IMG/VR virus record: IMGVR_UViG_3300030060_003880
Span: 1-29,681 of that record
Length of the DNA stretch: 29,681 bases
Strand: one strand, 5' to 3'
DNA from: a virus
The notes beneath the pieces were generated by a model. The model did not search any database. It was given only the letters and a program-made list of their open reading frames with translations, and was not told where the DNA came from. Position 1 is the first letter of the stretch. Every line of letters begins with the position of its first letter. Position numbers and translations under genes: made by a program. Shown here one piece after another: positions 1-16,015 of the stretch.

Positions 1-3000
1 TTATTACCAAATTTACCTTTAATTTTTTGTGCTAGTTCAAAGAAAGGACCTTTTGTTGCTCCTTTAACCTTTTCAAATTGTTTAAAATCAAATTCAGCGC
101 CATCTAATTCTAGTTGCTCTGCTTTTTCCGCAAACTCTTTAGCTGTTAATTCACCCTTTGTGCCATCAGGCATTGTGTATAAAACTTTTTCTTTTGTATT
201 AGCTAATGTTTGATCAAAATCAAATATTGATATTCCTTTTTCTGGAGCGTTGGGATCTCTAGCAACTTTAAGGGCTTTGTCTATTTTTTTATGTCTTTTA
301 CCATGCTCCTCATTACTCATGTTTTCATTAACAGATTTAGAATACTTTATATTTACTTTTTTAGCACCTTTTCTACCTAAATCTCCTTTTATATAACTAT
401 CTATTTCAGCTTGAGGATCAGCAACAACTTCTTGTTTACTTGTTATTCTATTTATAATTTCAGCTTGTTTAATCACCACATCGGGATTATTATGGTATTT
501 TTTATCAACTTCAACACCATACTTTTTAGCATATTCAGTTTTATTTGCGTTCAAATATACATACTTGTTAAAGTATTTAATATCAGAAAGTGGAACCTCA
601 TCAGCTTTAATTTCACCTCTTGCTAGTTTATCTAAACCTTCTTTTAAAAGTGGGTATTCATCAAACTTAAGATTAACGCCATCTTTCTTTGCCTCTTGAT
701 TATTATCAATTTTGTTAGCTGTTTCTTTTTTTAATGCAACTTGATAATAATTATCACCATCAATAAACCATTCTAAAAACTGATCCCATGTTTTTTTAGA
801 TTTGGTTGAAAATTCTAATACTCTTTTTGCCGCGTTTATTGCTTGAAAAACGTGTTCTCTTGTTACTTCACCCTTTTTTAAACCTAGTTCTTTTTGTAGC
901 GTGGCCGCAAGATTTCTAATAAGATTAAAATTTGCTTTACCGCTTGGGTGATATAAAAACTCTCTAACCTCAGCTATATTTTCTTTTGTTAAATTTCTAA
1001 AAGAATTTAATACAATTTTAGCACCTTTTTTACGAATATCTAACATCTCCTTGTTTTTTGCTATACTCTCTTCGTTTCTCTTTGTAGCTGCTTCTTTTAT
1101 AGCTTTATAATCATCCGATCTAAGTATAGCATCCATATCTACACCTTTATTTTTAACTAGTTGATAGGCTTTTGCATAAACAACCGTAACATCTGCTATA
1201 ACACCATCTTGAATTAAATAAACTGTATCACCATATTTATATTTTTTATTCTTTTCGGTTCTATTTTTATCTAAAGGCGTACGTTGTAAATCACCAATAA
1301 ATCTTACTGGATATTTTTTGTTAGCAGATAAAGCTCTTAAACCCTCATTACCTGTAAACCCTAGATTACGTGAGTTGATTAACTGTATTAATGCTGGATT
1401 TTCATTAACTAATTTTGTTGTTAAAAAATCTGTCATTTTTTTAGTTCCCTCTCTACCATCTTTAGTAGGCCCAGTTTTTAAAACCTTACTTCCACTTTTT
1501 TCAACAATTTGATTCATACCTTCATTTCCTCTATTATCACTCTTAGCAAATAATATTCTACTTTTACCATCATCAATTGCTTGTCGTGCTTCTTTTTGCT
1601 TTATAGGATCAAGATTCTTTTTAATAGCTTGATTGGTCATTGCTTTACCAGTTTCATTCATTAAAGCTGATACCATCCCAGATACTTGAGTTTGGTTTTT
1701 AACCTTCATTACTTCACCAGCAACAATACCAAATGCATCTAAAAATTCTTTTTTATTAAATGGTTTTTTAATTCTTACTTCTGATCCTTGCTTGCTTCTA
1801 CCTAATGCAGCTTCTTTTCTTACTCCAGTTTTATCATAAAACTTATCTAATATTAATTTTCTTATACCAGTTGATTTTCCTTGTTCATTTAATGCCTCAG
1901 GTAATAAGTTATATAATAACTCAGCATTTTTTCTTATAAAAGTTCTTGCCGCAATAACATCTTCTTTTCTTAATGATTTTTTTGGATCAATATATTGTTT
2001 TGGATCAACACCAAATAACTCAGCTGTTAATTCTGGGTTTAAATCTTTTACTGCTTTATAGCTATCAGGTATTTTAAAGTTTTTAGATTTCATTTGTTCG
2101 TTAACAGCTTTATCTATTTTATTAAAATCTAATTCTTTTGATAATACTTTTTTAGTAACTTTTTCTTTTTTATCAACTTTAGCTTTTACTTCTTCTTTAA
2201 CAGCAACACCTTTTGCTTCTGATATATCTTGTTCAAATTCAGTTTTTAATACTCTATTTGCTGCTTCAATAGATCTAGCGCTGATATATTTATTTATATA
2301 AGCAGCTAATGGTACACCCGTTTCTGGTTTGTATTCTCTTACTAAATCAAAAATACCACGTTTACCTGTTTCAATTTCGTCAGTTAACATTTGTCTATCA
2401 AAACCAGGTACATTTTGATATTTATTTACAATGTTATTAACCATTGGTTTATATTCATTGAGTATATCCATTATACCATCAACACCTTGTTGTTCGTATA
2501 TTTGTTGAACATTATCGCTTTCTGTTTTTGATAATTTTATTGTTTCAGCTTTTGCAGCAACGGTTTGATCTATACCTTTTCCAATACTAGCACCTTCTTC
2601 ATACATTCTTTGCATTCCTTTTCCAAGCTTACCATCTTTTACACTTTTGTTATAATCTTTAATAAAATTATATACATCTCTACCACTATTAAAATGCGTT
2701 TTTACTCCCATTGAATTCATAACTCCTCTAATTACATCACCTAATTTAGTGAATAAGTTTTCATCAAACTTTATTACGCCTTGCATTGTAGCATCAGAAA
2801 ACAACGTAAGCATTTCCTCTGCTTGTATTTCCTTTGTGTTATTTTGGTACTGAGCTAATCTATTTGCTAATCTGCTGCCCGGTGCTATAGATTGAGGATC
2901 AATATCTGCTATTGTATTATGTAGTGCTGTACTTAAACCAATTATAGCATTTGGATTTTTTTTCATTGTCTGAAGCAATAAAGCATGCGCTAACTCATGT

Positions 3001-6000
3001 GATCTTGTTGTTATTGCATTATCATTTTGAGAAACATCGTTATTTATAACTATTGTTTGTGTTCCGTCAGCTCTTTGTATAATAAAACCCTGTTCTAAAG
3101 CTGCGCGCTCTTCATCAACCTTTTCTATTTGTTTTCCATCTTTAATCTCTTCTTTAGATAATTTTTTATTGTGATCATCTATTTTTTTATTCTCCTCATT
3201 TATTATTTTCTTTACCTTATTAGTGTCTCCATCCTGCATATCAACACCGTCAAGTTTTTTCACAATGTTTTCAGTTCCTTTTACTATTTTTTCAGCTAAT
3301 TCTTCTTTACCTTTTGTAATATCACTATCTGCAATTTTTTTGTCAATAATTTCTATTTGTGAATTAATTTCATTATGAAAAGAAGAATCTTTATTTTGTT
3401 TATCCCTTATTAGTTTTTGTTTTTGAACCAACAAATCTATCTGTTCATCATTAACATGTTCTGGTGATAAATTTATAGCATTAACAACATCCGCGCCATA
3501 ATTCATAGCTTGTTGTATTTCTTTTTTACTTTTTTCTAAGTCTATTTTTTTACTTGGATTAGTTTCATTGGATAATCTTTTTTCTATAACTGCTAAATCA
3601 GCTTTTAAGTTATTTAAAGTTGTTATTGGATCTTTTCTATATTCTTGATAAACTAATTTTCTTGTGTTTTTTAAATCTTGTGATACTTGAACAGAACCTA
3701 AAGTACCAGAAAGTAAAATAGTTCCTGCTATTACTTGTTTTTGTACTTCTGTATCAAAAAATTCAGTTTTATCCATACCAAGCCCCATGCTTAATTTAGT
3801 AAAATCACCCAATATTACATCAACTTCTTCCTCCCCAAGTTCTCCAACTAAATTACTAGCGTATCCTGCTATTGCTTTAGTGTAAGCTTTTCTTGTTGCT
3901 GCTTTTTTTAGATTATTAACAAGACCATTTAATGTAACTTTTCCCGCCACGGTACCAAAGAAATTAACATCTGGCATTATTGGCTGTGATATAGCTGTAC
4001 CCATTGATTTTAGTGTACTATATATCATAGCTTTATCACCAGTTAAACCATAACCCTCTGCCTCTTTCATGTTATCAAATGTTGTCATTCTAAAAGCGGA
4101 TAGTTGCATTGCTTTTGCCTGACCACTCAAAAACCTTTTTCCAAACCAAGTTCCAGAAAGCATACCTTTAACGTTTTTAAAGTTACCTTTTCTAGCATCG
4201 TACGCAATTTGCAACGTAAATGGAAGCATATCACCAAAATTTTTAGAAAGTGATCCAATATTAAAGTTATAACTACCATCTTCATTTAGTAAATTGTACT
4301 GCTCTGATGTTGAAACTTTAGCAATATCAGATTTTCTTAATAGTGTTTCAAAGCTATCATTTAATGCGTCAAATCTATCATATCTATTAGGATCTTTTTG
4401 CCCTGTAATTGAACCTAAAAGATTTGTACCCCATACACCCATACCAGCATATCCCTTTAATACAACATTTTTCATTTCATTTCCAAAACTTAACACACCA
4501 GTTCCAAGTTGACCATGCCAAGTATTATCCCATGTCTTACTTAAAGCTTCTAACTCATCTGTTGTTTTAAAACTATTATCAAAAGCTCTATTTACAGCAT
4601 CCCATTTTAATTCTGCAATAGCACTATCTCCCTTTTTAATAGCTTCATTTATTTGTTTTATTTTTTCTTCTTTACTAAAAGGTAAATCATTTATTCTTTC
4701 AATTTCTTTCTGTACGTTATCAACTGTAGAACCTAATACTTGAGATTTAGCATTAGCAATAACTAGTTCTTTACCGCTCAAACCAAGTCTACCATATGTT
4801 TGTGCATTTATTCCAAACTTATTAGCGTAATATCCAATCTTATAATCAAAATCCTCCTCTTTTAAAGATTCATTTCTTAACATATTTAATGTACTAGGAT
4901 CATCTTTAATATCAACATATATTTGTCTTTTAACTTCTTCAGACAATTCAATAGTTTCTTTGATGTCAACTTTTGGAATATCTGGAATCACACCTAAATT
5001 TAAAATATTACCTATATTTCTTAATAAACCTTGATTTTCTACTTTACTTGCAACCTGTAAGTTTTCTATAGCTGGCTTTGTAAATTTATTATATTTATCA
5101 AGTCCTATTTGTTGTGATTTACTTAGTTGATTATAATAATTTGGATTGTTTTTTATTTTCTCATTAAATTGTTCGAATATAGCAATTTCAGCATCAGCTG
5201 CTTTAAGTTTTATATCATTTAATTTTTTTGCATTGTCTTTGAATGGATCAATTATATCCTGTGATTCACCTTGAAATTCGGCTTTTTTCATTTCGTTTTG
5301 CTGATCAATATACTCTTTGTCAGTCATTTTTTCTAACATAGCTTTTACATTAGGCGACGTAGCATTATCAATTGCCTCTTGTCTTTTTGATTTAATATAA
5401 CCTTCCCCAACTTCATCTGCTCCCACGGCCCAGTTGTACAAATTTCCAAGCCAATTACTTCCACCTTCATCTCCAGTGTTTTCTTTTATTAACTCTACCG
5501 TTCCTTCGTCTATAGCATCTTGAAATGTTTTAACCTTAGATGGTGTATTTTGCTCAATTAATTTATTTAATTCATCACCTCTAACACTAAGATCGTTAGC
5601 TGAATCCTCTAATATTTTTCTTTCATTCTCAAGCTCTCCTTGTTGTGAAGATAAACTATCACGTATACCTATAGCTTTTTTTTGTTTTTCTTGGATTTTT
5701 TCTAATTGTGGAAATAAATTTTCTTGAATAGATTGTGCTCTTTTAAAGTCATCTGAATAATATACTGAACCATCACCCTGATCAACGGAATAATAACCTC
5801 TTCCTTCATTTTCTTTATATTCTTTTGAGAAACTCTTATAAAAATCAAGGTCTTCTTGATTTTCCTCATAAAAACTAGTTATTTCACCTGTAATATTATT
5901 TAAAAGATCAATGTCCTCTTTATTATCTTCGTTGAATTTTGTTACTTTACCCTCATATTCAGTTTTTTTGTTAGTATAGCTATTAACTTCATTATCATAA

Positions 6001-6233
6001 AAATCTTTTAGTTCATTAACACTAAACTCATTTTCCCCTGAATTTTCTGTGTTTTCACTTACTTGGATTTTATCATTTGGATTTGTTTCTGTAGGAATTG
6101 ATGTAGGCACTGGTTTATCTACTTGTTGATAACCTTCTTTTATTATAACAGCTTCTGTTTGAGAAAGGTATTTCTTAAAAAGATCATCGTAGCTTGTGGG
6201 TGTACCATTAACATTATAATATTTTTCTCCCAT
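1..6233 (-). CDS. giant multidomain virion/ejection-type polyvalent protein (C-terminus beyond window)
   Basis: The frame starting at ATG 6233 (MGEKYYNVNG...) stays open to the window edge, giving at least 2077 residues; the C-terminus is missing. Seen in order: a charged, coiled-coil-rich region (about 60-400), hydrophobic Gly-rich stretches near 585-614 and 830-850, more coiled coil (about 880-1030), a zincin-type HELAH at 1079-1083 with later acidic candidates E1135, E1139 and E1140, a sigma-70 region 2-like segment (1245-1337), a long Lys-rich helical region, and a HAD motif I (IFDFDQTLANT, D2005/D2007/T2009) close to the edge. It is the last of three consecutive internal-protein-like genes, 15 bp after the 325-aa gene. 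Giant phage proteins that join a peptidase, HAD and other domains are known as polyvalent proteins. Inference: a capsid-internal protein injected with DNA, acting in the host cell. The open frame is certain; the sigma-like and zincin calls are motif-based, and enzymatic activity is unproven. Confidence 0.85.
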   Translation of the reverse strand, partial: MGEKYYNVNGTPTSYDDLFKKYLSQTEAVIIKEGYQQVDKPVPTSIPTETNPNDKIQVSENTENSGENEFSVNELKDFYDNEVNSYTNKKTEYEGKVTKFNEDNKEDIDLLNNITGEITSFYEENQEDLDFYKSFSKEYKENEGRGYYSVDQGDGSVYYSDDFKRAQSIQENLFPQLEKIQEKQKKAIGIRDSLSSQQGELENERKILEDSANDLSVRGDELNKLIEQNTPSKVKTFQDAIDEGTVELIKENTGDEGGSNWLGNLYNWAVGADEVGEGYIKSKRQEAIDNATSPNVKAMLEKMTDKEYIDQQNEMKKAEFQGESQDIIDPFKDNAKKLNDIKLKAADAEIAIFEQFNEKIKNNPNYYNQLSKSQQIGLDKYNKFTKPAIENLQVASKVENQGLLRNIGNILNLGVIPDIPKVDIKETIELSEEVKRQIYVDIKDDPSTLNMLRNESLKEEDFDYKIGYYANKFGINAQTYGRLGLSGKELVIANAKSQVLGSTVDNVQKEIERINDLPFSKEEKIKQINEAIKKGDSAIAELKWDAVNRAFDNSFKTTDELEALSKTWDNTWHGQLGTGVLSFGNEMKNVVLKGYAGMGVWGTNLLGSITGQKDPNRYDRFDALNDSFETLLRKSDIAKVSTSEQYNLLNEDGSYNFNIGSLSKNFGDMLPFTLQIAYDARKGNFKNVKGMLSGTWFGKRFLSGQAKAMQLSAFRMTTFDNMKEAEGYGLTGDKAMIYSTLKSMGTAISQPIMPDVNFFGTVAGKVTLNGLVNNLKKAATRKAYTKAIAGYASNLVGELGEEEVDVILGDFTKLSMGLGMDKTEFFDTEVQKQVIAGTILLSGTLGSVQVSQDLKNTRKLVYQEYRKDPITTLNNLKADLAVIEKRLSNETNPSKKIDLEKSKKEIQQAMNYGADVVNAINLSPEHVNDEQIDLLVQKQKLIRDKQNKDSSFHNEINSQIEIIDKKIADSDITKGKEELAEKIVKGTENIVKKLDGVDMQDGDTNKVKKIINEENKKIDDHNKKLSKEEIKDGKQIEKVDEERAALEQGFIIQRADGTQTIVINNDVSQNDNAITTRSHELAHALLLQTMKKNPNAIIGLSTALHNTIADIDPQSIAPGSRLANRLAQYQNNTKEIQAEEMLTLFSDATMQGVIKFDENLFTKLGDVIRGVMNSMGVKTHFNSGRDVYNFIKDYNKSVKDGKLGKGMQRMYEEGASIGKGIDQTVAAKAETIKLSKTESDNVQQIYEQQGVDGIMDILNEYKPMVNNIVNKYQNVPGFDRQMLTDEIETGKRGIFDLVREYKPETGVPLAAYINKYISARSIEAANRVLKTEFEQDISEAKGVAVKEEVKAKVDKKEKVTKKVLSKELDFNKIDKAVNEQMKSKNFKIPDSYKAVKDLNPELTAELFGVDPKQYIDPKKSLRKEDVIAARTFIRKNAELLYNLLPEALNEQGKSTGIRKLILDKFYDKTGVRKEAALGRSKQGSEVRIKKPFNKKEFLDAFGIVAGEVMKVKNQTQVSGMVSALMNETGKAMTNQAIKKNLDPIKQKEARQAIDDGKSRILFAKSDNRGNEGMNQIVEKSGSKVLKTGPTKDGREGTKKMTDFLTTKLVNENPALIQLINSRNLGFTGNEGLRALSANKKYPVRFIGDLQRTPLDKNRTEKNKKYKYGDTVYLIQDGVIADVTVVYAKAYQLVKNKGVDMDAILRSDDYKAIKEAATKRNEESIAKNKEMLDIRKKGAKIVLNSFRNLTKENIAEVREFLYHPSGKANFNLIRNLAATLQKELGLKKGEVTREHVFQAINAAKRVLEFSTKSKKTWDQFLEWFIDGDNYYQVALKKETANKIDNNQEAKKDGVNLKFDEYPLLKEGLDKLARGEIKADEVPLSDIKYFNKYVYLNANKTEYAKKYGVEVDKKYHNNPDVVIKQAEIINRITSKQEVVADPQAEIDSYIKGDLGRKGAKKVNIKYSKSVNENMSNEEHGKRHKKIDKALKVARDPNAPEKGISIFDFDQTLANTKEKVLYTMPDGTKGELTAKEFAEKAEQLELDGAEFDFKQFEKVKGATKGPFFELAQKIKGKFGN

Positions 6234-6248
6234 AACATTGTATTATTT

Positions 6249-7226
6249 TTAATTAGTTTCTTGATTTGGATCTGGTTGTTCAGCAACCTTCTCTTTCATT
6301 TCATTTTGTTTAGACGTATATATATCATAACCCGCTCTCCATTGCGTTGAAACTTGTTCTAATAACCACTGAACCATACCACTCATTACCATTTTTGGAT
6401 CTACTTTAATACTTTGTTTAATCCAACCATCGTCATAAATATCCTCAGCAACCCAATTGTTTGGATCTCTTTGAGGATCTTCATTTAACCAATCAACAAA
6501 ACTAGGATTACCATTTATTCTATCATACGCTAATGATAATAATCTTTCTATTTTAGCCCTTGGATCTACGGTACCTTCTAAACCAGACTCGTTATTTAAT
6601 ATTTGATATATTCTATCTCTTAGCATTTTTTCATTCCACGAGTCTTTTCCTCTTTGTAATGCACTATTGTAAGATTCATTAGCAATAAGCATGAATTGAT
6701 TATTTTCTTTTGATGCTTTTCTAAACATATTATTATACATCTTACTAACAGATGCCATTGGTATTTTGTTTTTATCTTCCATAACAAATACTGGTTGGTC
6801 ATCTTCTATTATAAATTCTTTATAATTACCAGAAAACATATCAGCTAAATATTTTAAGTGCATCCTGTCATTAGCATCAGAAAAACTACCAACATGTAAA
6901 GGATAATCTTTTGATATTTGTTGAAATTGCTCTAGTAAAGAATTTAATACTTCAAATTTATTTTTTACATCTTCTCTAGCTTGTAAAATCTCATCATACA
7001 TAGGATCCATCATGTCAACATTTGATAACTCGCTTGATGCCATAGAATATACATTTTTTTGCTTCATTAAATATCTTGTAATAACTGGCTTAAAATAATA
7101 TGGTATTTTTTCTGCATTAACCCCAGCACTACCAACATTTTCAATATAGTTTGATTCTGCTATACGAGCTTGTTGTAATAGCATAGCCTCAATTTCATTT
7201 CTTTTTTGTACTAATTCTACTGACAT
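6249..7226 (-). CDS. probable internal virion (ejection) protein, 325 aa
   Basis: No catalytic motif is recognised. The protein is mainly helical and charged, has no signal peptide or transmembrane segment, and ends in a hydrophilic tail (EQPDPNQETN). It contains several Trp/Asp-rich turns in its last third (residues about 240-300, around DPQRDPNNWVAEDIYDDGW). It lies between a small Gln-rich protein and the giant multidomain protein, in the same order as ejection protein genes at the end of podovirus tail operons (compare T7 gp14-gp15-gp16 or P22 gp7-gp20-gp16); this comparison is by position and size, not by sequence. The ATG at 7226 is preceded by an A/T-rich leader without Shine-Dalgarno. 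Likely role: a soluble internal protein of the injected set. An alternative is a tail-hub accessory protein. Confidence 0.6.
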   Translation of the reverse strand: MSVELVQKRNEIEAMLLQQARIAESNYIENVGSAGVNAEKIPYYFKPVITRYLMKQKNVYSMASSELSNVDMMDPMYDEILQAREDVKNKFEVLNSLLEQFQQISKDYPLHVGSFSDANDRMHLKYLADMFSGNYKEFIIEDDQPVFVMEDKNKIPMASVSKMYNNMFRKASKENNQFMLIANESYNSALQRGKDSWNEKMLRDRIYQILNNESGLEGTVDPRAKIERLLSLAYDRINGNPSFVDWLNEDPQRDPNNWVAEDIYDDGWIKQSIKVDPKMVMSGMVQWLLEQVSTQWRAGYDIYTSKQNEMKEKVAEQPDPNQETN

Positions 7227-7250: not shown

Positions 7251-7874
7251 TTAACCTCCCATGGCACCAGCAGCAGCCTCTACACCACCACCTACATAAT
7301 CAGTTATTCCTTGCATTAATCCTTCTTTTGCTTGTTCTCTTGCTTCATCAGCAGCAGACTTTCTTTCAGCGCTCATTTGAAGCATTTCTCCTTGTAATGC
7401 TGCTCGTCTTTCCTCTTGTTGTGATGCACCATAAGCTTTTCGCATTTGTATTTGAAGTCCTTGTTGTGCTGCCATTTGTTGATTTCTTTGCTCTTGTAAT
7501 CCTATACTAGCAGAAGCTCTTTGCATACCTTGTTGCTGTTGGTTTGCCATTGCTTGCGCTAAAGCAGCTATACCTGATCCACCAGCCGCGCCTTGCATAC
7601 CACCCATTGTGTTAGCTAATACTTGTTGTTGTTGTTGCGCTTGAAATTGAGCTTGTTGTTGATTTACAGTTAAATCTTCAGCGGTATTTTGAAGATTTGC
7701 ATATGGGTTTGTTATCTCTTGATTTGCATAAGACGCTTTAGCTAATTCAAATTCCTTTTGAGCCTCTCTTTGCTCTGCCCTTCTTTGCCCACCACCAATA
7801 CTACTAGTTATTATGTTAGCTACACCACCTATTGTTTTTACCGCGCCCTGCGCAATCGCCATTGGATTTATCAT
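7251..7874 (-). CDS. small Gln/Ala-rich probable internal virion protein, 207 aa
   Basis: Low-complexity protein. The N-terminus (residues 1-30) is Gly/Ile/Val-rich and moderately hydrophobic. The centre is dominated by Gln-rich helical repeats (QQQAQFQAQQQQQ near residues 70-85 and NQQQQGM near 112-118), and the C-terminus ends in a Gly/Ala-rich segment (DYVGGGVEAAAGAMGG). Such composition, with amphipathic or membrane-seeking ends around a helical core, is common in small podovirus ejection proteins that form a pore in the cell envelope. The family link is by composition and gene order only. It precedes the 325-aa and giant proteins by short gaps, so the three are probably one transcription unit. 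A purely structural tail role is also possible. Confidence 0.6.
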   Translation of the reverse strand: MINPMAIAQGAVKTIGGVANIITSSIGGGQRRAEQREAQKEFELAKASYANQEITNPYANLQNTAEDLTVNQQQAQFQAQQQQQVLANTMGGMQGAAGGSGIAALAQAMANQQQQGMQRASASIGLQEQRNQQMAAQQGLQIQMRKAYGASQQEERRAALQGEMLQMSAERKSAADEAREQAKEGLMQGITDYVGGGVEAAAGAMGG

Positions 7875-7919: not shown

Positions 7920-8252
7920 TTATTTACTACTTGTAAATATTTCCGATCCCACCGCATATAATTCTACAGCACTGGTTTCGTCATTTTTCATTTCTACTTC
8001 AGCATAATACCCACTTAATGAGGATAAATTTGCTTTATTATCTTTACTAAACATAATAAAATTACTAGTTGTAGGTCTAGTTGTACCTACACCAATATTA
8101 CATGTTATTGTTGTTGATGTTACTGCTGTAACCGTACCCATTTCTACTGGAGTTGCACCAACACCACTTGTTACAACACAGTAATACGCTGTATCTCCTA
8201 CCTGAACGGATACGTTAATGTATTTAGCGAATGTCATTGTTATTGTTGCCAT
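7920..8252 (-). CDS. conserved small virion protein, 110 aa, unknown function
   Basis: A short beta-rich protein with Thr/Val/Ser-rich strands through residues 1-75 and a C-terminus (SLSGYYAEVEMKNDETSAVELYAVGSEIF) that resembles small proteins encoded next to the large tail gene in marine phages; that recollection is from general familiarity, not a search. It sits 29 bp after the 2577-aa tail gene and 45 bp before the 207-aa gene, in the same orientation. The start is ATG at 8252 (MATITMTFAKYINVSVQ). No enzymatic motif is visible. It may be a small tail or capsid decoration protein. Confidence 0.6.
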   Translation of the reverse strand: MATITMTFAKYINVSVQVGDTAYYCVVTSGVGATPVEMGTVTAVTSTTITCNIGVGTTRPTTSNFIMFSKDNKANLSSLSGYYAEVEMKNDETSAVELYAVGSEIFTSSK

Positions 8253-8281: not shown

Positions 8282-11200
8282 CTACCCAGTGCTATATCTT
8301 ATACCAAATTTTATTTTATCTTGTATTGCATGCCACTCAGCACCACTAGCACCAATTGTGTTATTAAAGTTTATTTGAATTGGTCCGATATAAACCCATT
8401 GGTATTCTCTACCAGTTTTTCTAACGTAACTAGTTGGATAATTATGATAACCTGGACTAAAACTTGGGTTGCTAGGTCCTGTTATAGAAAAAATAGGAGA
8501 TCCACCTGTTGGAGTAGTTGGATCATAAAACACATCGCTTGGTATATAATAAGATAATGTTATATCTTCTTTTGTTAATCCTTCCGCGTGTTTATATATA
8601 AGACCTTGGATATATACGTTTTTAAGTTGTTGTGCGGCATCACCATCACCATCTGCCAACTCAGCAGTGTCCTTAGTTACATTTTCATACGTAGCATTGT
8701 CGTAATCATAAGAACCAGCATCATTAACACCTAATGTTAATAATCTATTTTCTGTTACGGTTAAGTAACGTAAATTAAATGTTGCTGTTCCTGAAACTGC
8801 AGCTGTAGCAGCTGTTGCATCTTTATACCCATCATTTGTTACTTTTAATTCTGATTGTGGTCTATCTGCAGCATCGATTTGTATTGCTTTATTGCTATCA
8901 AACAAGAAACGATCCATATTTAACATCATTGTTCTATGTGATGTTCCAAAATTATGTATACCAGTGGATCCAGTTAAAGTATATACACCTTTTTGGGTAT
9001 TACCAGCTGCTGGTGCTATAAGTGTACCTGATACATTTCGCATTCCAATTCTCCAATTGTCTGGTTGTTCAAAATATAATAATGTATCTTTAGCTAAACT
9101 TTGTGGTGAAGATAAAGTAACTGTTTTAGTTAAATAATTCCACCCAGCAACTGTAACGTAATCTTCGTTATTTGCTGTTTTTATTTGATAATTACCATCG
9201 GTATCGGCGTACGCATCTCGAACTTTCATACCCGGGAATGAACTCAAACCAATATCTGTTTTATCACCACCACCAGTTCTTGGATCTAATTTTCCATCTC
9301 CATTGCTAGCATATATAGCATTATTTGTACTATACAATACTGCTGTTGTAGAATTTTCTGTTGCAGCAGAAACCCTACCAGTTACAAACGTATTTCTAAA
9401 ATCTAAACCAGGTATTGGGTCTCTCAAGTTCTTAAATTTTAACGCCGCCCTATCAGCTTCAACACCACCATCATGACTATATATTATAGTAAAGGGAACA
9501 AAATTACCACCATCTTCTTCTCCCGCAAAAGCTTTAGGTCTACCAAATTGTTGTGCATATGGTGTAACGCTATATTTCTTTTCTGATGTAGTATCACCAG
9601 TTACTGTCACGGTATAACCACCTGAACTTGCTGTTGCAATACCAGTTGTACTTAATCTATTACCTGATGCGGTTAAAAGCGTGAAGCAGACTCTATTATA
9701 TTGATATACTGAAGCTGGGTTTGTGTCAACAAACGTACTTGATAATGACCCTGGGTTTACTGGGCTAACCTCATATTCAAACTGCCTAGTATCAACACTT
9801 GATATAGTTGGATATAATTCTTTATATAAATAAACTCCACCAGAAGGTATGGTAAGATCAAATGGTTCCAGTTCATAACCAGTGTGATCATATGCATTTC
9901 CTTCCCCAACCTCTGTTTCTGTGTCATTATAATGATGCCAGTCATTAGTTGTTACTGTACTACCTACTGTTGTTATAATTCTTCTTGCTAATCTAAACGT
10001 CGCATTTGGTGGTCCAGTTATTCTATGAGTTAATTCTTCGCTTTTTAATCCAGATATAATTGTTTTTTCATATTCATAATTCCAATCTTGTAATGTAAAT
10101 CCTGTTATTTTATCAGCTTCTGCTACAACAGTTGTAGGTATTTTTATAGCCTTTGCATTAAAAACTAATACGTCACCGGTAATATTTTTTGCACCATGTT
10201 TATATGTGATTGTAAATGTTACAGCTGTAACGTTATCATTAGCATCTGTTGTTGTGTTTGATGATGTTATTGTGTAATAACTTTCTACGTCATTATCTTG
10301 TGTATCTATATCACAGGTTGGTGTTGTTGCGAAATGATAACCAGAATCTGCTGTAAATACTTTATTCCATGTTGAACTTGTTGCGCTATCTGTAAACGTT
10401 GGTGTAGAAGTTGCTTCATAAATTCCAGAAGAACTGTATGTGCCCTCTGTATTATAAGTATCAGAGCTTACATATGCATTCTCCGCGTTTACTTGATATG
10501 AACCACTTAATGTATATGAACTAGCTGTTGCTGTTGTGCCTAACGTAACAGTAATGTTTCTATCCGCAGCTAAAGTGTGTGCACTTAAATCAAGCGTTAA
10601 TACACCAGATGACCACGTGCTACCAGATCCTATAGCAGAAACACTACTAGATGGACTTTGCGAAGAAATAGTTTGACTAGATGGTAATGAATATCCTGAA
10701 TCAGCTTTAAATGTTAATATAGGGTTTGCTATGTTTGATGTATTACCAATATCAGTTCCAGTTGCTACGTTAAGATAAACAATTTTATTACTACCAGTTT
10801 CTAATACCCAATTTCCACCCGATACACTTTCTACGGACATACCAGTAATATCACTTATTGTAATGCTTAAATCAAACCCACCAATTGATGTGTCACCACT
10901 AATCGAAGCAAATTGACCAATACCTTGTACGGAAAATTCTTGTGTATCTAAATTTGATGAAGTTGTTGAGCCATCTGCAGCAGTATGCGTTGTTGTATCA
11001 CCAATAAGGTAGTTATACCATATACCTTCTTTTTCTACAAACTCTTTAACATCTCCAGTTTGTTCATTTGTTGTAACAGAATTACAATACCAACCTTTTG
11101 TAAATGTGGTATTAGCTGGTGTATCATGATCATATGTATATTTTCTTGATTTTGTTCCTTCATAATTTAATGTTTTAAATCCTTTAATAAAAGATGGTGA

Positions 11201-14200
11201 GTCATTCAATATAACATTAATAGAGGATTCATGTGTATTATGAAATGATAAAATTACATCATCGGATATTGTTTGCGCTGAAGATAAAACTAATGCAGTG
11301 CCACTTATTGAGGCAACGGTTACTGTATCAACAGTTATGCCAGTACCTTTTACAATTTGCCCAACTGCAATATTGCTATTTGAAGAGTCTAATGTTACGT
11401 TTGTGCTATTGCTAACATTACCGTTTACCTTAGCAATTGCTCCATAGAAACAATTTCTTAAACTATTATTATGTATATATAAATCTCCATTTTTAAATGT
11501 ATAATATTTGTTATTTAATGATAAACCAGATTCTGGAATAAATGATTTAAAACTTGTCCAACCATTAATTCTCTCATCAAAACTAACTGTATAATCATTT
11601 GTTCCTTTTAATGTAAGATTATAAGAACCTTTGTTTTCATTATATGTACCTAGAAGCGTCGTAGATGTTGCTAGATTGTCTTTAAACCAATCTGTCATGC
11701 CATTGGCCGCAATATTGTTTAAACCATTTCTAGACAGCCTTAAAACAGCTCCTCGAGACTTATCAGCAAAGTATGCTCTATATGCGTGAGAAATAAATGA
11801 TTCTGGGTTTTTTGATATTCCATATTCACCAGGGTATGGTGCGGCAACTCCCAATACTTTATTGCTAGCTGTTAAGTTAGCAGAACCATCAGCATTAAAT
11901 AGTAAATCTTTGTTTGCGGGAATATTTAATATTTTATCTTCACATAATGCAATCAAATCATTATCTCTTGTGTGTAATTTTTGTATACTACCATATTGTG
12001 GGTTAAGATCTTTTGTAATGGGTTCTGCTTGAATAAATTGATTTAATCTATTTATACCACTTCTTGAATTAAATAAACCAGAAAAAATTAAACCATTTGG
12101 TTTGTGTTCTTCTTTGTATTGCTCTGATAACGTGGTTGATACCCTTGGTCCTTTATCAATAAACATAGCATTAAAATCATCATTTATTCGATTAGATTCA
12201 ACGCCATTTCCAAATGAATAACAATTAAACCAACTAAGTTGATGTTTTTGACCATGTACTTGTCCACCATCTATTTTAATTACCTTTTGTCCACTTGCTA
12301 TTGCTCCACTTGTTGTTACATTAAAACTATGTACATTATCTGAAGATGTAATTGTTAACTCAATAGGAGAAGCAGCTGTAACAGCACCGGCTAAATTTTG
12401 ATTAATTGTAAACTCTAATACATCAGTAGTTTTATTTGGTTTATTTACAGATTTAATAGTTGAATTTGCAGGTACAATACTAGTACCACCACTTTTTTCT
12501 TTAATTTTCATGCTAGGTTTAATAATAGGAATTGCATTACTAGCTTCATAATATAAATCCAATTCAGCTGTTTCTATTGGTTCTGTTTCAAATATTGCTG
12601 GATTTTTTGATGATATAGTGGTGTTACCAACTTTTAAATCTTGCTTTACAATATCTATTCTTGATATTACTTTACTACTATTACTGTGATCAAATGTTCC
12701 TGCGGTTTCAGCCCAACCAGTTGTACCATCACCACCTGCTCTTTTAAATTTTATTTTATATTCAATTCTTTTTCCATAAATTCTATCTAAATGTTCTTTC
12801 ACCTTACCCCAATCACCTTGGTATCTATATTGAAAATCTTTTTCACCATTTAAGACTTCATAAACTAAACTTTTATCCCCATTATCATTTCTAAATTGAA
12901 ATTGTGTACCGACTTCAACTAATTGTTCTAAAAGTGGATTAATATCAGCATTTTTATTATGTAATACACCTTTTTTTCCTTTACCTTCCTCAATTGTACC
13001 TTGATCTACTTTTCCCTTTGACATGCTGCTTTTACTCCAAGAATCACCATAATCTACACCAGACCAAAATACTGAAAATTCTTGCTTATCATTTTCATTA
13101 GTTGTTGAATTAGTTTGATCACCTGGATAATTTAAAGCGCCCGCATTAAAATTATCACGAGTTTTCTTGTTGTGTGTTTCTGAATCACTATGGTTTGTTG
13201 GGTTTTTTACAACTATATCTACGCCATCCCTATCTTCCCAAGCAATTCCCTGTATGTTTTGCCACGGGTGACCATAATACGGTGGATCGTTTTCGTTTTC
13301 TGGTATATTAACACTATTAGCATCTACACGTCTACTATTTGTAATGCTATATTCTATACCAGATGATGTAAATGAACTAACAATATTTGTATCAAAAACT
13401 GCATCTCTATTAATTTTAACAAAAAATCTTCCCTCATACTCTGGTTTTAATATTTCTTTTTCCTCATGTAAAACAATAGTAAACTCATCTTCAGCATTTG
13501 TGTTAGCGGATTTTAATATCTCTGCTTCTGTGTCTTTAAATCCTTCTTCTAATGTAACAGTATATACATGCTTTGCTCCTGTAGATCCAACAAGTTCTAC
13601 TTCACCCGTTAAACCACCACTTACTATTCTATATTTATTTGTTGTACCACTACCTGTAGTGATTGATAATACACCATCTGAATTAAAACCACTAGAAAAT
13701 GTTGGATTCTGTGTTGCTTCTGGTCCTCTAAATTTAAAGCTACTAACACCAATACCAGGAGCATTGTTACCTGAATTTAATATTCTACATAACGCACTTC
13801 CCTTTGAACTAGTTTGTAATGTGATAAACTTTGGTGGTTCATTTTTTATATCAAGCACTTTATATTTAGCGTCAACTTCAACAGGTTCATCAGAGTTGTG
13901 TTGTTTTTTTAATATTAGATATGATTCTTCTGTTAGTTTATTTCTTTCTGATGATGGAAAACTTAACCAAACATTTCCATCTTCTGCTGGATAAAACCTA
14001 TCCAATGCTAAATTATAATATTCATTAGATGGTTCTTTTATATAATATTTACAATGTGTCGCAAAAGCTGGAGGATTGTTAAGTAATTGACATTCTAATT
14101 TATTTACATTATCAGCAAAAGACTTACCTAATTTTATAGATGCGTTATTATTAGAAAAAACAGGTGTTTCTCTACCATATAAATCTTTATATACCACACC

Positions 14201-16015
14201 AGCTTGATATGTTCTTTGTGTTTTTATAGATTTTTCAGGTTTCTTAACCGTTAATATATCATTATTTTTAATACTAATTGCTACATCAGGTGTATTTTGT
14301 TTTAATATTGTATATTGTTGTTTATAATTACCATATATTAATCTATTTGCAGTAACCTCTTGACTTAATGCTTTTTTAGGTACATTATCCCATGGTCTTA
14401 ATAATTGATTTGATGGTACTGTTGCACCAATAATTTCAGAACTTATTTCATAAGATAAAGCTGGAAATCCAGTAACAGTAGTTGTTCTATCTTTTATTGT
14501 ATCAACAACATATACGTTTGTGCTATTTGATTCTTTATATAATATATCGACCTCATCTACGTTATCTGGTTGTGTATCTAAATCATGTATAATTAACCTT
14601 CTCAATGCGTTACCCATACCAACATTATACCCGTTTGATGATTCGTATTTAAATTCACTTGGTAAAAATGCAACTTCTGTAAATGGAGAAAACGTAGAAT
14701 ATTCTCCATCTTTATATTTCCATCTATAACTAAAACGAACAAATTTTTCTTCAAATAAAGGATCTGCCTCATCTAATACTATCTCCCATTCTACAGCTCT
14801 ATTTGGCACCTCAAATGGAATACTTTGTATTTCAATATTTAGTGGACTAATAGGATTATCATCTATAACTTTTGCTTTTATTTTATAAACATCACCACCT
14901 TCTTTATATGTTAACGTTATAATGTCATTTTTTCTATAATCAAAAACTGATTTATCTCCAAATGAAACGCCAATATCCGGTAATAAAGTAAGATCTTTTT
15001 GTTTATTAATTTTTTCCCTTACTATAATAGCACTACCTACAGCAGGGGCACCACTAGTTGTTGTTGGGGAAAATGTTATCACACCACCAGTACTAGTAGA
15101 ATAACTATACGTCCATATTGTTGTTGGTGTATTTATTTGTTCTTCTCCATCAATAAAAACTTCAAGATTATTTTTGTTTAAATTTTCTATTTCAGTTTGA
15201 AAATAATCACTTAAAAGTGTAAATGATTTTTTATTACCATCTCCTTCAAATTTTTGTCCAGCCCTTATTTTATTACTTGGAAAATCTGAAAAATCTTTTT
15301 TTGCATATAACTTATCGCCGCCTTCAGTTCCAATACCACCACGTTTGGATGAAAACATTGCTAACTTAGGAGCTTTAAGTGGTCCTAATTTTATTGTTGT
15401 AATATCATTCTCTGTAAAATCATCACCAGTACCAACTGTTCCTGTAATTAAATCACTTGTAAATTGCGTATGTGTATTAAAATTAGTACAACCTGATTTA
15501 AATATTCTAATATTTATCTTTTTGGGTTCTGTTTGATTATCTGTCCATAATAAAAAATCTGAAATATTACCCTCTGAAGAACCAAGTACATTAACACCTG
15601 TAATAGGATAGTCTGTACTAAAATTTAAAATACTATTTTTATCTACTAATACCGGCGCAACAACGCCTGTTGCTTCATCATATTCAGCAATAGCACTTAC
15701 TCCAGTAGCTACAATAAACCAATAAATTTTATTATTTTGTGTATCAGCGATCGATCCAATACATTGAGGTGAGGTTAAATCTTTAATAGAATTAGATGCA
15801 ACATCCCAAGCCGTTGTTGCTGCTGTGCTATTATTATATGTTTTTATATCTTTTAATGTTGTTCCAACAACATTTTGAACAGATCCCACGTCAGAACCTT
15901 CTGATGTAGTTATTTCTATATTTTGAGCGTCACGGTATTCACCGTTTGGAACAAGTCTCTCATCCAGATCCTTGTTCATTCTACCGGCTCTAAAATGATG
16001 TTTAATATCTGGCAT
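8282..16015 (-). CDS. very large tail protein (nozzle/ring/fibre-like), 2577 aa
   Basis: Starts MPDIKHHFRAGRMNKDLDER, a beginning typical of large structural proteins in marine podovirus-like phages. The N-terminal third is beta-rich and includes a domain (residues about 253-335, core GQKFEGDGNKKSFTL...VFIDGEE...GAPAVGSAIIVRE) that recurs in the neighbouring 375-aa protein. Around residues 1300-1480 there is a propeller-like stretch with DKSRGAVLRLSRNGL near 1410. The C-terminal half is low-complexity Ser/Thr/Gly beta sandwich material with two related segments, FKADSGYSLP near 1769 and FTADSGYHFA near 1888, suggesting duplicated Ig-like units. Six bases separate it from the upstream 375-aa gene. 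Likely role: the main tail body below the connector, perhaps also carrying host-contact domains. No lytic, peptidase or lyase motif was found by eye. Its length is far above that of T7 gp12-type nozzle proteins (about 800 aa). Confidence 0.8.
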   Translation of the reverse strand: MPDIKHHFRAGRMNKDLDERLVPNGEYRDAQNIEITTSEGSDVGSVQNVVGTTLKDIKTYNNSTAATTAWDVASNSIKDLTSPQCIGSIADTQNNKIYWFIVATGVSAIAEYDEATGVVAPVLVDKNSILNFSTDYPITGVNVLGSSEGNISDFLLWTDNQTEPKKINIRIFKSGCTNFNTHTQFTSDLITGTVGTGDDFTENDITTIKLGPLKAPKLAMFSSKRGGIGTEGGDKLYAKKDFSDFPSNKIRAGQKFEGDGNKKSFTLLSDYFQTEIENLNKNNLEVFIDGEEQINTPTTIWTYSYSTSTGGVITFSPTTTSGAPAVGSAIIVREKINKQKDLTLLPDIGVSFGDKSVFDYRKNDIITLTYKEGGDVYKIKAKVIDDNPISPLNIEIQSIPFEVPNRAVEWEIVLDEADPLFEEKFVRFSYRWKYKDGEYSTFSPFTEVAFLPSEFKYESSNGYNVGMGNALRRLIIHDLDTQPDNVDEVDILYKESNSTNVYVVDTIKDRTTTVTGFPALSYEISSEIIGATVPSNQLLRPWDNVPKKALSQEVTANRLIYGNYKQQYTILKQNTPDVAISIKNNDILTVKKPEKSIKTQRTYQAGVVYKDLYGRETPVFSNNNASIKLGKSFADNVNKLECQLLNNPPAFATHCKYYIKEPSNEYYNLALDRFYPAEDGNVWLSFPSSERNKLTEESYLILKKQHNSDEPVEVDAKYKVLDIKNEPPKFITLQTSSKGSALCRILNSGNNAPGIGVSSFKFRGPEATQNPTFSSGFNSDGVLSITTGSGTTNKYRIVSGGLTGEVELVGSTGAKHVYTVTLEEGFKDTEAEILKSANTNAEDEFTIVLHEEKEILKPEYEGRFFVKINRDAVFDTNIVSSFTSSGIEYSITNSRRVDANSVNIPENENDPPYYGHPWQNIQGIAWEDRDGVDIVVKNPTNHSDSETHNKKTRDNFNAGALNYPGDQTNSTTNENDKQEFSVFWSGVDYGDSWSKSSMSKGKVDQGTIEEGKGKKGVLHNKNADINPLLEQLVEVGTQFQFRNDNGDKSLVYEVLNGEKDFQYRYQGDWGKVKEHLDRIYGKRIEYKIKFKRAGGDGTTGWAETAGTFDHSNSSKVISRIDIVKQDLKVGNTTISSKNPAIFETEPIETAELDLYYEASNAIPIIKPSMKIKEKSGGTSIVPANSTIKSVNKPNKTTDVLEFTINQNLAGAVTAASPIELTITSSDNVHSFNVTTSGAIASGQKVIKIDGGQVHGQKHQLSWFNCYSFGNGVESNRINDDFNAMFIDKGPRVSTTLSEQYKEEHKPNGLIFSGLFNSRSGINRLNQFIQAEPITKDLNPQYGSIQKLHTRDNDLIALCEDKILNIPANKDLLFNADGSANLTASNKVLGVAAPYPGEYGISKNPESFISHAYRAYFADKSRGAVLRLSRNGLNNIAANGMTDWFKDNLATSTTLLGTYNENKGSYNLTLKGTNDYTVSFDERINGWTSFKSFIPESGLSLNNKYYTFKNGDLYIHNNSLRNCFYGAIAKVNGNVSNSTNVTLDSSNSNIAVGQIVKGTGITVDTVTVASISGTALVLSSAQTISDDVILSFHNTHESSINVILNDSPSFIKGFKTLNYEGTKSRKYTYDHDTPANTTFTKGWYCNSVTTNEQTGDVKEFVEKEGIWYNYLIGDTTTHTAADGSTTSSNLDTQEFSVQGIGQFASISGDTSIGGFDLSITISDITGMSVESVSGGNWVLETGSNKIVYLNVATGTDIGNTSNIANPILTFKADSGYSLPSSQTISSQSPSSSVSAIGSGSTWSSGVLTLDLSAHTLAADRNITVTLGTTATASSYTLSGSYQVNAENAYVSSDTYNTEGTYSSSGIYEATSTPTFTDSATSSTWNKVFTADSGYHFATTPTCDIDTQDNDVESYYTITSSNTTTDANDNVTAVTFTITYKHGAKNITGDVLVFNAKAIKIPTTVVAEADKITGFTLQDWNYEYEKTIISGLKSEELTHRITGPPNATFRLARRIITTVGSTVTTNDWHHYNDTETEVGEGNAYDHTGYELEPFDLTIPSGGVYLYKELYPTISSVDTRQFEYEVSPVNPGSLSSTFVDTNPASVYQYNRVCFTLLTASGNRLSTTGIATASSGGYTVTVTGDTTSEKKYSVTPYAQQFGRPKAFAGEEDGGNFVPFTIIYSHDGGVEADRAALKFKNLRDPIPGLDFRNTFVTGRVSAATENSTTAVLYSTNNAIYASNGDGKLDPRTGGGDKTDIGLSSFPGMKVRDAYADTDGNYQIKTANNEDYVTVAGWNYLTKTVTLSSPQSLAKDTLLYFEQPDNWRIGMRNVSGTLIAPAAGNTQKGVYTLTGSTGIHNFGTSHRTMMLNMDRFLFDSNKAIQIDAADRPQSELKVTNDGYKDATAATAAVSGTATFNLRYLTVTENRLLTLGVNDAGSYDYDNATYENVTKDTAELADGDGDAAQQLKNVYIQGLIYKHAEGLTKEDITLSYYIPSDVFYDPTTPTGGSPIFSITGPSNPSFSPGYHNYPTSYVRKTGREYQWVYIGPIQINFNNTIGASGAEWHAIQDKIKFGIRYSTG

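Follow-up and report, generated by a model that had tools for sequence, protein, structure and literature searches.

Probable virion packaging of a giant protein with zincin, sigma domain 2-like and HAD phosphatase modules in a phage with a crAss-related muzzle

Introduction

Why should a virus encode, directly behind the genes of its particle, a protein of more than two thousand residues that joins a peptidase-like, a sigma factor-like and a phosphatase-like module? The question is raised by the beginning of the IMG/VR virus record IMGVR_UViG_3300030060_003880 (36,262 bases), the first 29,681 bases of which were analyzed here and are hereafter called the window. An earlier note, made from the letters of the window and a list of its open reading frames, had read the frame at the edge of this stretch as a giant, probably injected protein. 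We have followed this proposal with family profiles, predicted structures and gene order in relatives, and conclude that the giant is probably a phage polyvalent protein packaged in the virion, namely a late product that is packed into the head of a podovirus related to crAss phages and ejected through portal and muzzle at infection.

Results

The giant gene and its family

The frame runs on the minus strand from an ATG start through 2077 uninterrupted codons, exactly as the earlier note had it, and is open only at the contig edge. Since the window starts at the first base of the record, the gene has been cut by assembly and not by biology; a second contig, 99% identical across residues 1–1305, likewise ends within the giant gene. 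Used singly, the window protein had no significant match in Pfam, PHROGs or PDB sequences, and neither the whole protein nor its sigma-like segment alone found a tblastn match among 50,697 phage records; only family profiles worked. The sigma-like segment, used as query, led to a locus (L010) whose protein P0006, of 2418 residues, is a complete homologue and supplies what the contig edge removes, that is, the rest of the HAD domain followed by about 650 residues of helices. With the C-terminal 859 residues of P0006 as query, at least 155 viral contigs were matched and 80 kept; the conserved C-terminal end of the giant is thus present on at least 155 related ocean virus contigs.

Module content was compared in 70 proteins, the window protein and 69 relatives longer than 2200 residues (2252–4311 residues, median 2917, a few of them reaching the contig end). 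All 70 have the HAD module and 68 the HExxH motif; 63 match the zincin profile, and 37 contain the sigma-like segment. All 33 proteins having the three modules carry them in the order zincin, sigma, HAD, with the sigma segment starting 51–169 residues past the zincin. When tested on these relatives, the three modules named by the earlier note all hold up, as detailed below.

The zincin module

The HELAH motif spans residues 1079–1083 (window 2985–2999), within a conserved zincin-like domain in which E1140 is the third ligand. The H, E and H of HExxH and the downstream third-ligand E (H41, E42, H45 and E102 of the alignment) are invariant in 56 of 56 aligned domains, and the model of this region shows strands, then the HExxH helix, then a helix bearing the E. 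The zincin profile finds the same domain in gp18, the giant structural protein of the Elemovirus phage elemoF (E = 1.3e-10); the match to the giant of the Manatee Spring podovirus is weaker, with a domain E of 1.3e-5 and a whole-protein E-value that is not significant. Pfam searches with single sequences gave hints of SprT-like (E = 0.095) and, in L041, of Peptidase_M1 (E = 0.03). Superposition of the two-domain model with VIA-align returned no zincin fold among the matches listed, all of which were sigma factors, and Foldseek returned no E below 0.001 for the same model.

The HAD module

Within the window the sole HAD motif is motif I, DFDQT (residues 2005–2009), which the homologues show to be the start of a complete HAD domain, as completed in P0006. 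Their motifs I to IV are all present (DxDxT, T(AR), K, DD), and in an alignment of 55 rows D22, D24, T26, L100-T101-A102-R103, K138 and D157-D158 are invariant or nearly so. The best structural match of the HAD model is the phosphatase of T4 Pnkp (Z 12.5, root mean square deviation 2.3 over 126 residues); the top six rows are all phosphatase domains of T4 Pnkp or bacterial Pnkp1 (Z 11.4–12.5), whereas other HAD phosphatases reach at most 10.9. The HAD profile had PNKP as its sole matches in PDB, at a non-significant E of about 1.1. On the strength of the model, a 3'-phosphatase is the leading guess for the specificity of this module. It shares with the 3'-phosphatase domain of T4 polynucleotide kinase the closest fold, all four HAD motifs and an arginine past motif II, but differs in having about 15% identity, in lacking a kinase domain and in being embedded in a giant protein of a virion operon. 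(In two relatives, L057 and L060, a second HAD-like motif, VIDFDQSL, lies close to the N terminus, at residue 130 of the giant.)

The sigma domain 2-like module

The segment likened in the earlier note to region 2 of sigma-70 was examined with a profile of 36 members, built without any sigma factor. Of its 45 matches in PDB (E up to 10), 39 are RNA polymerase sigma factors matched in region 2, the best with E = 9.5e-6; the reversed-sequence control gave eight matches, none of them a sigma factor, with a best E of 0.047. Three family members also match Pfam Sigma70_r2 weakly (best E 0.003). The AlphaFold model of the segment has a pLDDT mostly above 85, and VIA-align placed sigma factors in all 50 rows listed, with Z reaching 8.7 across about 90 residues (190–292 of the model), values to be read with caution because a Z under 13 may arise by chance when domains are helical. 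Because two independent methods agree, profile and model superposition, we accept the homology of the segment to sigma domain 2. For the comparison of single residues we used sequences of sigma-70 and sigma-S with their contact positions: an acidic residue stands at the position of D403 in 28 of 36 rows, and aromatic residues occupy those of F419 (36 of 36) and Y430 (33 of 36).

Relatives also encode a separate sigma factor. A protein of about 250 residues with regions 2 and 4 was found in 10 of 12 large relatives (G001–G007, G009, G011 and G012; two copies in G001), and such phages thus probably redirect the host RNA polymerase at some stage. The partial record of the window, Elemovirus, phi38:1 and the Manatee virus yielded no stand-alone sigma factor.

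The C terminus and the N-terminal regions

The approximately 650 helical residues that follow the HAD domain in P0006 are the most conserved part of the family. Foldseek against viral models retrieved for this C terminus four close relatives from uncultured viruses and then many distant matches (E 1e-13 to 1e-4), several of which bear the names of polyvalent-protein domains; alignments with root mean square deviations above 8 make this a resemblance and not a detailed fold match. A profile of the mid region found nothing relevant in PDB.

The coiled coils claimed for the giant have weak support: residues 1–700 contain four heptad-like windows (shuffle mean 0.08, maximum 3), none of them strong. 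The closest relative differs from segment to segment of the window protein, and this mosaic of relationships is the pattern that module exchange would give. Giants encoded at the same position carry other modules: that of Panino has one resembling a tRNA methyltransferase (phrog_4752, E = 1.7e-16; L009:18229-23718), and that of elemoF has DUF3293 (E = 1e-12; L006:38719-49803), so that the slot holds different domains. In two loci, L043 and L049, the giant gene appears split, an arrangement that resembles a frameshift or an error of assembly; the two frames of L049 overlap immediately ahead of HAD motif I.

The virion operon

Genes for TerL, portal, capsid-like, ring-like and muzzle proteins precede the giant on one strand, so that it is the last gene of the virion operon. 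Identified on this strand are TerL (phrog_6681, E = 1e-168), the portal (phrog_6547), a capsid-like virion protein (phrog_13704) and two more virion proteins. The same order, with the giant last, recurs in the cultured phages Elemovirus, phi38:1, phi13:2 and Panino and in the Manatee Spring record; in Gundel_1 the giant comes after the counterpart of the 207-residue protein described below, yet before the portal. The giant of this Tenacibaculum phage bears the annotation of a structural protein and has the C-terminal region in common with the family (E = 6.8e-11). Of the two small ejection-like proteins said to be encoded just upstream, the one of 207 residues belongs to a family with homologues in cultured flavophages whose annotation is structural or virion protein (Gundel_1, E = 7.5e-13; phi38:1, 3.4e-9; elemoF, 1.3e-6), and for the one of 325 residues such homology is marginal. 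Virions of crAss001 contain proteins of 155–277 kDa (PMC10172136), so the size of the giant is no obstacle to packaging.

Discussion

A probable route from virion to host

The earlier note had proposed a multi-activity protein delivered with the DNA to attack or reprogram the host at once. What stands of this is the composition (zincin, sigma region 2-like and HAD) and the virion-gene context, through profiles, models and synteny; that the giant is packaged, injected and attacks or reprograms the host at once is what we infer, with the annotation of the Gundel_1 protein as structural in its favor. Under the packaged polyvalent protein that we consider probable, the conserved helical C terminus would serve packaging or ejection, and the giant would enter the host together with the DNA. 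During or after delivery the zincin might cut the giant polypeptide, thereby separating its modules, or a host protein. The sigma-like module could then engage the host RNA polymerase or its sigma-binding surface and bias transcription ahead of phage gene expression, which is the weakest step, and the HAD module may take 3' phosphates off nucleic-acid ends, for instance in the repair of ends left by host nucleases.

Several observations weigh against this interpretation. The zincin has no confirming fold match, its best profile hit in PDB being snapalysin at a weak E of 0.26; no Pfam polyvalent model (LPD or PolyVal) matches the giant sequences; the label "structural protein" in relatives could have been transferred between annotations; and the giants of phi38:1 and phi13:2 have no sequence match to the modules, synteny being their sole link. 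As for the sigma-like segment, Z values of 6–9 for so small a helical domain are modest by themselves, none of the 36 rows has the W433/W434 dyad, and the equivalents of E407 and M413 vary.

These last points bear on a rival that concerns this one module and is compatible with the packaged polyvalent protein: a helical nucleic-acid-binding or packing domain that has the fold of domain 2 without sigma function. The tryptophan pair of sigma region 2 reads the -10 element. Lacking this pair as well as region 4 (Sigma70_r4 of Pfam was not found in the giant proteins), the segment is no working sigma factor in the usual sense. Together with the variation at clamp-contact residues and the separate canonical sigma factor of the lineage, this makes the rival quite possible, even if the fold and core pattern (acidic at D403, aromatic at F419 and Y430) have been kept across great divergence and the segment retains a similar place behind the zincin.

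A second alternative is a giant with a chiefly structural or ejection (channel) role, carried out by the helical C terminus, its modules being decorative or degenerate and non-catalytic. The strong conservation of the mostly helical C-terminal region would fit such a role, and so would N-terminal regions that are unrelated even between close relatives. We nevertheless hold it to be unlikely, for even very diverged proteins keep the catalytic residues of the zincin and HAD modules invariant or almost invariant, as mere decoration would not, and neither the window protein nor P0006 contains a 19-residue hydrophobic segment above KD 1.5. Least probable is a giant that acts late instead of on entry, its zincin maturing head proteins or the giant itself and its other modules working in the producing cell: the gene is one of a late operon, and processing of polyvalent proteins by zincins before or after packaging has been discussed (PMC5512222), but this would leave sigma-like and phosphatase modules beside virion genes unexplained, and in relatives the corresponding product bears a structural annotation, which places it in the particle.

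Comparison with known systems

Among polyvalent proteins the zincin is the commonest domain, and those of phages adjoin virion genes (Iyer et al. 2017, PMC5512222). The giant resembles these phage proteins in its multidomain build, its place beside virion genes, its zincin hub with variable effector modules and its helical C terminus, which is similar to that of proteins named after polyvalent domains. It appears to differ in its cargo, since the main text of PMC5512222 never mentions sigma, phosphatase, haloacid or polynucleotide kinase. A literature search that left most subscription journals outside its scope found no injected sigma-bearing protein; as far as could be found, the sigma domain 2 and Pnkp-like modules are new among polyvalent proteins.

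The virion RNA polymerase of N4 and the cargo of crAss001 (gp45, gp47, gp49 and gp50) are likewise large and encoded among virion genes, and they are packed in the head; polymerases of the N4 type are also found fused to zincin domains (PMC5512222, PMC10172136), and crAss phages share with the window virus a crAss-related muzzle in the same operon. Pfam detected no RNA polymerase domain in P0006; the giant has a sigma domain 2 fold and a HAD phosphatase instead. (A search of near-complete relatives with PF00940, the T7-type RNA polymerase, was void, as no control matched.) The comparison with N4 drawn by the earlier note is thus apt for the logic of delivery and fails for the content. The giants of cultured flavophages (Gundel_1 gp74, elemoF gp18, phi38:1 gp101 and phi13:2 gp127) are encoded by the corresponding gene of the virion block, but searches of them yielded neither a sigma nor a HAD module, and those of phi38:1 and phi13:2 gave no module match at all. 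Compared with the sigma-70 family, the segment shares the fold of domain 2 over about 90 residues and the core pattern, and stands apart by its position inside a giant and by the missing tryptophan pair and region 4.

It is tempting, if rather doubtful, to extend the argument further: a lineage of podoviruses of marine Bacteroidota might inject a sigma domain 2 module that binds host RNA polymerase at entry, ahead of all phage gene expression, together with an end-repair phosphatase that reverses damage by host nucleases, as an alternative to an injected RNA polymerase, and use their own full sigma factor later. Few phage weapons are as poorly understood as giant injected proteins. The present family has many members in metagenomes, keeps its core while its modules are swapped, and counts the cultured phage Gundel_1 as a distant member; its size and this cultured phage make it testable whether phages without a packaged polymerase seize host transcription through a virion-delivered sigma-like domain. 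A Pnkp-like phosphatase delivered with the DNA, if true, would suggest that ends severed by host defence nucleases are repaired at once.

Virus, host and neighboring features

The TerL of the window virus is 62% identical to that of the Manatee Spring podovirus and about 45% to those of Elemovirus phages of Flavobacterium. In twelve relatives found via the giant TerL is 70–80% identical (65–80% in one where it is in pieces), which assigns them to one lineage. Contigs bearing the core occur in bacterial genome bins that are mostly, not only, of Bacteroidota, making a host of this phylum likely; the virus is probably a crAss-related podovirus of marine Bacteroidota. In one relative, G012 (C1:23204-25365, minus strand), TerL is broken into pieces by TAA and TAG stops and frame changes, suggesting sequencing errors or a decayed gene in this record. 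The features of the locus are collected in table 1.

Table 1. Features of the giant gene and its surroundings (window positions unless a locus is named)
Feature	Position	Strand	Residues or length	Basis and relatives
Giant, putatively polyvalent protein gene	3..6233	(-)	residues 1-2077	3' end cut by contig; complete homologue P0006 of 2418 aa
N-terminal region, hypervariable	4134..6233	(-)	residues 1-700	matches none of the 80 family members
Region ahead of zincin	3123..4106	(-)	residues 710-1037	common to only three relatives: L020, L025, L026
Zincin-like metallopeptidase domain	2610..3113	(-)	residues 1041-1208	H, E, H, E invariant; elemoF gp18 match
Sigma domain 2-like segment	2217..2546	(-)	residues ~1230-1339	profile, AlphaFold model, reversed control
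Conserved block behind sigma segment	1671..2096	(-)	residues ~1380-1521	P1445 nearly invariant; alignment A8; no Pfam match
Conserved block	533..866	(-)	residues ~1790-1900	E1793 nearly invariant; EH, YxQ, K, D, YxN pattern; alignment A8
HAD phosphatase domain, start	3..263	(-)	residues 1991-2077	motif I DFDQT at window 207-221
Fast-evolving protein between 207-aa protein and giant	6249..7226	(-)	325 aa	family in 10 loci
Q/A-rich protein	7251..7874	(-)	207 aa	family in 70/80 loci; homologues Gundel gp72, phi38:1 gp99, elemoF gp20
phrog_18548 protein	7920..8252	(-)	110 aa	PHROGs match
Muzzle-like tail protein	8282..16015	(-)	2577 aa	crAss_MUZ_C (E 4e-6); phrog_14478 virion structural protein
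Stand-alone sigma genes in records of relatives (G001, G002, G004, G006, G007, G011, G012)	L103:210-959; L104:296-1045; L105-L107; L108:672-1421; L109; L110	L103 (+); L104 (+); L108 (-)		

The muzzle-like protein is much longer than its counterparts in related phages, which range from about 950 residues (Panino) to about 1610 (phi13:2), and its extra C-terminal part looks low-complexity and threonine/serine-rich. At its far end (G000:C1, ~35539-36262; L003:9540-10263) the record codes for GroES and a C-terminal portion of GroEL, and Elemovirus and the Manatee virus likewise have GroEL/GroES genes. Long frames that look like fibre genes and contain repeated segments occupy L003:2132-7427 (record 28131-33426), where a run of N in the assembly splits them.

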